Shown: one piece after another, positions 52,954 to 54,037 of the stretch
Position numbering within the stretch: position 1 is the first letter of the stretch
Layout: the number at the start of each line of letters is the position of its first letter
From: Ignisphaera aggregans DSM 17230
Lineage (GTDB): Archaea > Thermoproteota > Thermoprotei_A > Sulfolobales > Ignisphaeraceae
Length of the DNA: 64,000 nucleotides
Direction of reading: 5' to 3'
Assembly: GCA_000145985.1 (NCBI GenBank)
Contig: CP002098.1
Coordinates: 124,001 to 188,000 of the forward strand
Position numbers and translations under genes: made by a program
The notes under the pieces: model-generated
Database searches by the model: none
What the model saw: the letters and a program-made list of their open reading frames with translations, nothing else
What the model was told of the DNA's origin: nothing

Positions 52954-53502
52954 TTGTTTAGAGTATATAAGCTAAGAGATGTTGTGAGGATAGATCCATC
53001 AAAATTAGATCGGGAAATAGAAGAAGTAGCTTTTGAAGAACTAAGGAAACGTTATGAGGGATTAAAAGATAGGAATTTAGGTATAGTACTTGCTATAACA
53101 AATATAAAGGTAGATCCTATAGGCTACATCCCTATGGGAGATGGTGCTCCATACCATAGAGTGGAATTTGATGTTCTGACATATGTACCAATTGTTGGTG
53201 AAATAGTTGAAGGAATTGTTGAGACTATTGGACGTATGGGAATAACTATAAGGATAGGTCCTATAGAGGGATTTGTTCATATTTCACAGATATCAGATGA
53301 TGAAGTTAGATATGACCCTGTATCAAATACATTGATATGTAAAAATACCAAGAGGGTTATATCACAAGGAGATATAGTTAGAGCAAGAATAACCACAGTT
53401 TCGCTAGGGCCACAGCAAAGACTACCTAGAATAAATATGACAATGAAACAGCCATATCTAGGTAAGCTAGAATGGATTGAGTCATCCAGTAAAAAGTCTT
53501 AA
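52954..53502 (+). CDS. rpoE1: DNA-directed RNA polymerase subunit E' (Rpo7)
   Basis: Rpo7 forms the stalk of RNA polymerase together with Rpo4. The 182-residue protein has the RNP domain (FRVYKLRDVVRIDPSKLDRE) and an S1 domain (GEIVEGIVETIGRMGITIRI, then GFVHISQISDDEV). The start is TTG 52954. The Spt4 (RpoE'') gene normally next to it is not seen; a C/D RNA and a winged-helix gene follow instead. Confidence 0.95.
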   Translation: MFRVYKLRDVVRIDPSKLDREIEEVAFEELRKRYEGLKDRNLGIVLAITNIKVDPIGYIPMGDGAPYHRVEFDVLTYVPIVGEIVEGIVETIGRMGITIRIGPIEGFVHISQISDDEVRYDPVSNTLICKNTKRVISQGDIVRARITTVSLGPQQRLPRINMTMKQPYLGKLEWIESSSKKS

Positions 53503-53574: not shown

Positions 53575-53635
53575 AAAATGATGAGCCTTGTAAGGTCTGA
53601 GCATCTATTATATGATGAGCAGGGGATTCTGATTG
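53575..53635 (+). ncRNA. C/D box small guide RNA
   Basis: All four boxes of a double-guide archaeal C/D RNA are present: box C ATGATGA (53578-53584), box D' CTGA (53597-53600), box C' ATGATGA (53612-53618) and box D CTGA (53629-53632). The guides are 12 nt (GCCTTGTAAGGT) and 10 nt (GCAGGGGATT), and the D'-C' spacer is 11 nt; these sizes are typical. By the fifth-nucleotide rule the guides predict 2'-O-methylation at the fifth base of ACCUUACAAGGC and of AAUCCCCUGC. The last D base is directly followed by the TTG of the next gene. Confidence 0.85.
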
Positions 53636-54037
53636 GTATGGTTAAGTAAGAGAGAATTGGCATACTATATAGTCTTAAAAAGAGTATTTGGATATAATCA
53701 ATTTAATTTAGGCGAAGCACTAGATATTCTTAAGTATCTAGGCTCTAAAAGAATAGCTAGAAAAATTATCAGAAGATTAGCCAAAAGAGGCTTTATACAA
53801 AAGATTAATGAAGTTAATTATAGGGTTATGGAGTTAGAGCCAGCACTCATTAATATATTATCTAGATATATATTTAATAGAATGTATAAAAGCATGAGGT
53901 CACAGAATACTCCTATAAAAATAATAGAAAAAGAATTAAGGATAATTGTACATGGCAACTGTATGGATAGAAATCTAGAGGTGCTTGGTAGAAGTCTAAG
54001 CGATATTATGTATATTGAGTGTAAAGAAAACCATTAA
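53633..54037 (+). CDS. Winged-helix DNA-binding-like protein
   Basis: The 134-residue protein has an N-terminal winged-helix pattern (KRELAYYIVLKRVFG, LDILKYLGSKRIARKIIRRL, AKRGFIQKINEVNYRVME), which suggests DNA binding, and a C-terminal half of unknown fold ending in IMYIECKENH. The family is not recognised. The start is TTG 53633 immediately after a stop codon, and this codon touches box D of the C/D RNA; a TTG at 53657 is a possible later start. Confidence 0.6.
   Translation: MVWLSKRELAYYIVLKRVFGYNQFNLGEALDILKYLGSKRIARKIIRRLAKRGFIQKINEVNYRVMELEPALINILSRYIFNRMYKSMRSQNTPIKIIEKELRIIVHGNCMDRNLEVLGRSLSDIMYIECKENH

Follow-up and report, generated by a model that had tools for sequence, protein, structure and literature searches.

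A C/D box sRNA at the start of a winged-helix gene: a candidate guide for wobble methylation of tRNA-Val(UAC) in Ignisphaera aggregans and its relatives

A 64,000-nt stretch of the Ignisphaera aggregans DSM 17230 genome (a single contig of 1.88 Mb), referred to here as the window, carries a canonical C/D box sRNA directly ahead of a gene for a winged-helix (WH) protein. We put at roughly 80% the probability that this RNA guides methylation of U34 in tRNA-Val(UAC) and at the same time forms the 5' leader of the WH gene, probably being excised from a longer transcript. The RNA has a second (D) guide, which in most of the order matches the D-loop of tRNA-Val and of a few other tRNAs and would point there at C17.

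The guide RNA locus and the adjoining gene

The sRNA occupies positions 53578-53632 of the plus strand, a span of 55 nt that includes a 12-nt and a 10-nt guide, and is laid out with its neighbors as follows.

52954..53502, plus strand: Rpb7/RpoE1-like gene (SHS2 and S1 domains), ending 75 nt upstream of box C
53578..53584, plus strand: box C, ATGATGA, read from the sequence and kept in alignment A1 (18 genomes)
53585..53596, plus strand: D' guide, GCCTTGTAAGGT, 12 nt, complementary to the tRNA-Val(UAC) anticodon loop, with Um34 as predicted product
53597..53600, plus strand: box D', CTGA, from sequence and alignment
53601..53611, plus strand: D'-C' spacer, 11 nt, exceeding that of most relatives
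53612..53618, plus strand: box C', ATGATGA, from sequence and alignment
53619..53628, plus strand: D guide, GCAGGGGATT, 10 nt, homologous to the D-loop guide of relatives and with no convincing tRNA target here
53629..53632, plus strand: box D, CTGA, abutting the TTG at 53633; its TGA is an in-frame stop preceding the open reading frame
53633..54037, plus strand: WH gene, 134 aa, TTG start, supported by the open reading frame, the starts of orthologues and a structure model

Judged by its sequence, the locus is confirmed as a real C/D box sRNA gene. It has boxes C (RUGAUGA), D', C' and D (CUGA) and guides within the usual length of about 10-12 nt, and the initial proposal of four perfect boxes within 55 nt stands far above shuffle expectation: the four-box pattern, in strict or relaxed form, occurs once in the window, against chance rates per window of 0.0033 (strict) and 0.0067 (relaxed) in 300 dinucleotide shuffles of the window. 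The contact between box D and the TTG codon also holds, with no gap between 53632 and 53633, and the start codons of WH orthologues (ATG, GTG or TTG) share one alignment column, which makes the TTG a credible start and gives the locus the form of a 5'-overlapping C/D sRNA gene. A search of 12 relative loci, taken as one 36-kb set, against Rfam returned zero matches at E<=0.05. Minimum-free-energy folding of the guide RNA was uninformative (z 0.24), as expected for a molecule whose shape is set by protein-bound k-turns, and a sigma-70 promoter scan of the locus was set aside as not applicable to archaea.

The assignment of a winged helix to the product of the downstream gene is borne out by structure prediction. 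In its confident AlphaFold model (mean pLDDT 91.5) a winged helix forms the N-terminal portion and a small alpha/beta part lies at the C-terminus, and the Foldseek top list consists mostly of DNA-binding winged helices of the MarR/MecI/BlaI and LysR types, none of the Foldseek matches reaching E<=0.001. The window protein matched no Pfam family above its cut-off; 5 of 19 members of the WH family gave weak TrmB matches, and the best hit of a PDB profile search (E 0.029) was not a DNA-binding protein. On the predicted fold, the WH protein is likely a regulator. The WH gene is followed by an Alba gene on the opposite strand and then by a 1228-aa open reading frame, which we take to encode a reverse gyrase.

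Predicted targets of the two guides

Among the 43 host tRNA genes scanned (tRNA numbering being assigned by this analysis), the best partner of the D' guide is tRNA-Val(UAC), at the anticodon-loop site CCUUACGAGGC. Pairing with this tRNA spans guide positions 2-12, includes a single G.U at tRNA position 37 and places U34 at +5; guide position 5 pairs U34 and not the C34 or G34 of the Val CAC and GAC isoacceptors, which mismatch there. Only 3 of 400 shuffled guides reached the same score on the tRNA set. A C/D target is described as requiring at least about nine base pairs including the +5 nucleotide (PMC4644070); the D' pairing extends this far, and that of the D guide in the host genome does not. 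The sequence-only reading had derived the target ACCUUACAAGGC for the D' guide, which comes close to the site in tRNA-Val(UAC) and departs from it at the G.U of position 37. A slightly higher full-length score for the D' guide was obtained in a 19-kb stretch around the 23S gene, outside the detected rRNA and tRNA matches.

The same pairing recurs in the 39 genomes for which both guide and tRNA sequences were compared. Guide positions 3-7 are paired with tRNA-Val(UAC) in every one of the 39; in 34 genomes, all but G013, G046, G053, G055 and G111, positions 2-10 are paired as well. Guide position 8 and tRNA position 37 combine as T-A (18 genomes), T-G (12), C-G (6), C-A (2) and A-G (1). Striking as it initially seemed, this covariation was discarded as decisive proof, because a T at position 8 is compatible with A as well as G, and pairing there fails in three genomes, G055 among them; the counts are consistent with pairing and weak as covariation. 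Taken together with conservation of the guide, these sequence comparisons indicate that the D' guide most likely directs 2'-O-methylation of tRNA-Val(UAC) at its wobble base, U34. No report of a guide for this nucleotide was found in the literature listings and passages searched.

An additional copy and two partial ones of the target tRNA were noted in three genomes. Locus L247 (G009, contig C10) encodes a second tRNA-Val(UAC) with a different body (GGTTTGG D-loop and other variable and T arms); the contig also bears a 16S gene, and this tRNA copy is possibly a contaminant or horizontally gained. Loci L234 (G055) and L239 (G140) hold isolated 3' halves of tRNA-Val(UAC) after unrelated sequence, which resemble the tRNA fragments derived from integrated elements.

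For the D guide, the T-arm target first suggested has to be abandoned. It amounts to a generic 7-nt match, in that AAUCCCC is found in 15 of the 43 host tRNAs (13 of them with the motif in the T arm), pairing extends over no more than 7 nt (8 in two tRNAs), and on the tRNA set the real guide was equalled or outdone by 357 of 400 shuffled ones. Across most of the order the D guide approximates (T)AACCAGGCT; its partner is the tRNA-Val D-loop, which reads AGCCTGGTTA, and C17 falls at +5. Outside the host genus, guide positions 2-9 are all paired with the D-loop in 22 of 28 genomes, and in three genomes (G018, G038 and G071) a CCC in the D-loop is matched by GGG in the guide. The six exceptions comprise one mismatch (G013), two losses (G014 and G015) and three shifts of register (G053, G081 and G111), the latter relative to box D as placed in this analysis.

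One of the genomes examined, G055, we take to be that of Sulfolobus acidocaldarius. Over the 30 of its 46 tRNA genes that were scanned, the D guide best matches the three Val tRNAs, His(GTG) and one unlabelled tRNA; Val(UAC) is the top match to the D' guide. Mass spectrometry of tRNA from S. acidocaldarius has located a methyl group, most probably a 2'-O one, at position 17, and part of the tRNA monomethylations of this species are reported as orphans awaiting guides (PMC7668247). We predict that the position-17 methyl matches the C17 site of tRNA-Val. For the same species 61 C/D sRNAs have been catalogued in a study that does not compile their tRNA targets in the text consulted (PMC4644070), and the guide RNA described here may already be part of that set.

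Within the host genus the D-loop is mostly AGTCTGGTA, the D guide is altered to forms such as GGGGATT, and pairing between the two is found in 0 of 11 genomes; here the D guide has drifted and is probably unused. The change of the tRNA-Val D-loop from AGCCTGGTTA to mostly AGTCTGGTA falls in the very genus (g1) that lacks D-guide pairing; the loss of the guide and that of its target seem to have gone hand in hand. Most members of g1 retain a G-run (GGG or longer) in the D guide, a few nucleotides upstream of the WH start, where it may serve as a weak ribosome-binding site. The anti-Shine-Dalgarno sequence was read in four relatives, but the spacing of the G-run to the start codon varies. In family f7, box D and the bases that follow it form CTGAGG, a possible Shine-Dalgarno sequence.

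A target in rRNA has also to be considered, given that archaeal C/D guides with a predicted target mostly address rRNA (56% rRNA versus 16% tRNA in Pyrobaculum; PMC7994747). The rRNA scan was conducted in four relatives (G003, G005, G008 and G009), with all of the host 16S gene and part of its 23S gene left out. In G005 a stretch of 23S rRNA pairs with the D guide at 11 of 11 nucleotides (G.U included), but this site differs in the other three genomes without a matching change in the guide, and this sole long match was rejected as not conserved among the four relatives scanned. The best rRNA matches of the D' guide in these four genomes, moreover, are clearly poorer than tRNA-Val(UAC). On the rRNA of these four relatives, we regard it as highly improbable that the RNA acts on rRNA and not on tRNA.

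Conservation and the link to the winged-helix gene

Loss of the boxes in close relatives would have told against the sRNA; on inspection they are retained across the genus and far beyond, and the sRNA is conserved in related genomes, as a C/D box sRNA should be. Protein matches to WH were found in 38 of 60 genomes, host included. All 16 examined loci of family f1 that carry the WH gene, again counting the host, have an sRNA with the same D' guide core ahead of the start codon, box D lying 0-14 nt from that codon. In alignment A1, built from 18 sRNAs (16 from f1 and two from f11), the D' guide is the best-conserved segment. At E<=0.01, a sequence model derived from these 18 found matches in 90 of the order's 147 genomes (72 of 129 when the model-building genomes are excluded), and at E<=0.001 in 103 of 229 genomes of the class.

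Gene context was examined at 83 sRNA loci, among which some weak homologues (e.g. G103, G104, G113) are possibly false. The WH gene lies downstream on the same strand in 45 of them (f1 16/17, f11 20/20, f9 7/8, other class members 2/3), within 15 nt of the model end in 40 cases and at 50-138 nt in the other five. The f9 locus of G144 is by eye almost identical to that of G105, yet its WH gene fell below the tblastn cut. In 11 loci the WH gene is on the opposite strand (f3 3/3, f7 8/9), and in 27, including all 19 of f2, none was found next to the sRNA. The sRNA is therefore not dependent on the gene. Two of the reversed loci, in G042 (L195, f7) and G019 (L190, f3), have the sRNA fronting a neighboring gene instead, and the gene that follows this neighbor resembles that for the wybutosine enzyme TYW3.

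In the mechanism we favor, in which the sRNA guides U34 methylation and doubles as WH leader, L7Ae, Nop5 and fibrillarin would assemble on the sRNA and methylate the tRNA. In f1 the sRNA is often found close behind the end of the rpoE1-like gene and is probably excised from the transcript of the upstream gene (rpoE1 in the host). The f11 loci have an AT-rich, TATA-like block about 28 nt upstream of box C, so that transcription there probably begins at the sRNA itself. It is plausible that sRNA and mRNA share one transcript and that the 5' end of the mRNA is processed, as the sequence-only reading had envisaged. Mature archaeal C/D sRNAs usually extend a few nucleotides beyond box D, and a mature RNA here would consequently run into the start codon; a single transcript would then yield the guide RNA or the full-length WH mRNA, but not both.

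The closeness of box D to the WH start, which holds both in the 16 f1 genomes and in 40 of the 45 same-strand loci, could also mean that the C/D fold is chiefly a regulatory leader, on which L7Ae or the whole sRNP represses WH translation and for which the guides are secondary. The L7Ae protein of S. acidocaldarius does repress its own mRNA through a k-turn in the leader (PMC5539422), and, according to a review, genes overlapped at their 5' end by a C/D sRNA are transcribed at significantly lower levels (PMC7994747). A pure regulator, however, needs the boxes and not the guide, whereas conservation of the RNA is highest in the D' guide, which retains its tRNA pairing, and the sRNA persists where the WH gene is missing (f2) or on the opposite strand (f3, f7). 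We thus consider a chiefly regulatory role improbable. Compatible with guide function, and to our mind evenly balanced, is the view that the adjacency is a leftover of gene order devoid of any functional link. The wider order of WH, Alba and reverse gyrase is likewise conserved in the host, f11 and f9 loci (reverse gyrase being recognized by eye), so that linkage does not prove a functional tie between sRNA and WH gene; in f3 and f7, moreover, the sRNA occupies the same gap in reverse, and f2 does without the gene. Against this, the upstream neighbor changes from Rpb7 in f1 to a divergent gene in f11 and another gene in f9 while the distance from sRNA to start codon remains short. A more ambitious proposal, which we deem unlikely, is that of a class-wide switch: one transcript would yield either the tRNA-Val wobble guide or the WH regulator, with sRNP assembly tying the supply of guide (and of free L7Ae and fibrillarin) to regulator output, and with the reversed RNA of f3 and f7 fronting the neighboring gene. 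Maturation of C/D sRNAs is reported to be decided by the boxes and not by the flanks (PMC7994747).

Comparison with known systems

If the favored reading of a wobble guide doubling as WH leader holds, the locus would provide a named candidate guide for wobble methylation of tRNA-Val across a large archaeal group, together with a candidate for directing 2'-O-methylation of tRNA position 17. It also offers a conserved natural case in which to ask whether a guide RNA at the start of an open reading frame controls the gene, an arrangement that PMC7994747 depicts as rare and associated with lowered transcription.

The arrangement itself has precedents. C/D sRNA genes overlapping the 5' end of an open reading frame made up 7% of those surveyed (Tripp et al. 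2017, via PMC7994747), and a start codon right after box D, as seen here, is among the commonest positions in known 5' overlaps (PMC7994747). What differs is the link to one gene, which is retained across several families of the class, whereas the same source stresses rarity and variable context. The l7ae mRNA leader (PMC5539422) likewise places a k-turn-forming RNA beside a start codon, but there the element is autoregulatory and not a guide; the likeness of our locus to k-turn leaders repressed by L7Ae is confined to geometry. The snoPyro_CD (RF00095) and sR12 (RF01147) families, the best C/D-type Rfam hits of the locus, share the C/D architecture and differ in their guides, and the locus scores below the gathering threshold of both (27.4 bits against 45 and 20.5 bits against 38, respectively). 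Known C/D guides for position 34 address Pyrococcus tRNA-Leu CAA and UAA, tRNA-Met and tRNA-Trp (PMC7994747, PMC7668247); the wobble position is the same, and a tRNA-Gln case likewise pairs anticodon-loop and D-loop sites. Here, by contrast, tRNA-Val(UAC) is predicted as the target and C17 as the D-loop site, and both are absent from the lists consulted in these two sources. The locus hence combines two known kinds of element, sRNAs abutting the start of open reading frames and position-34 tRNA guides, and what is new is the guide family, the wobble target predicted for it and its deeply conserved association with a single gene.
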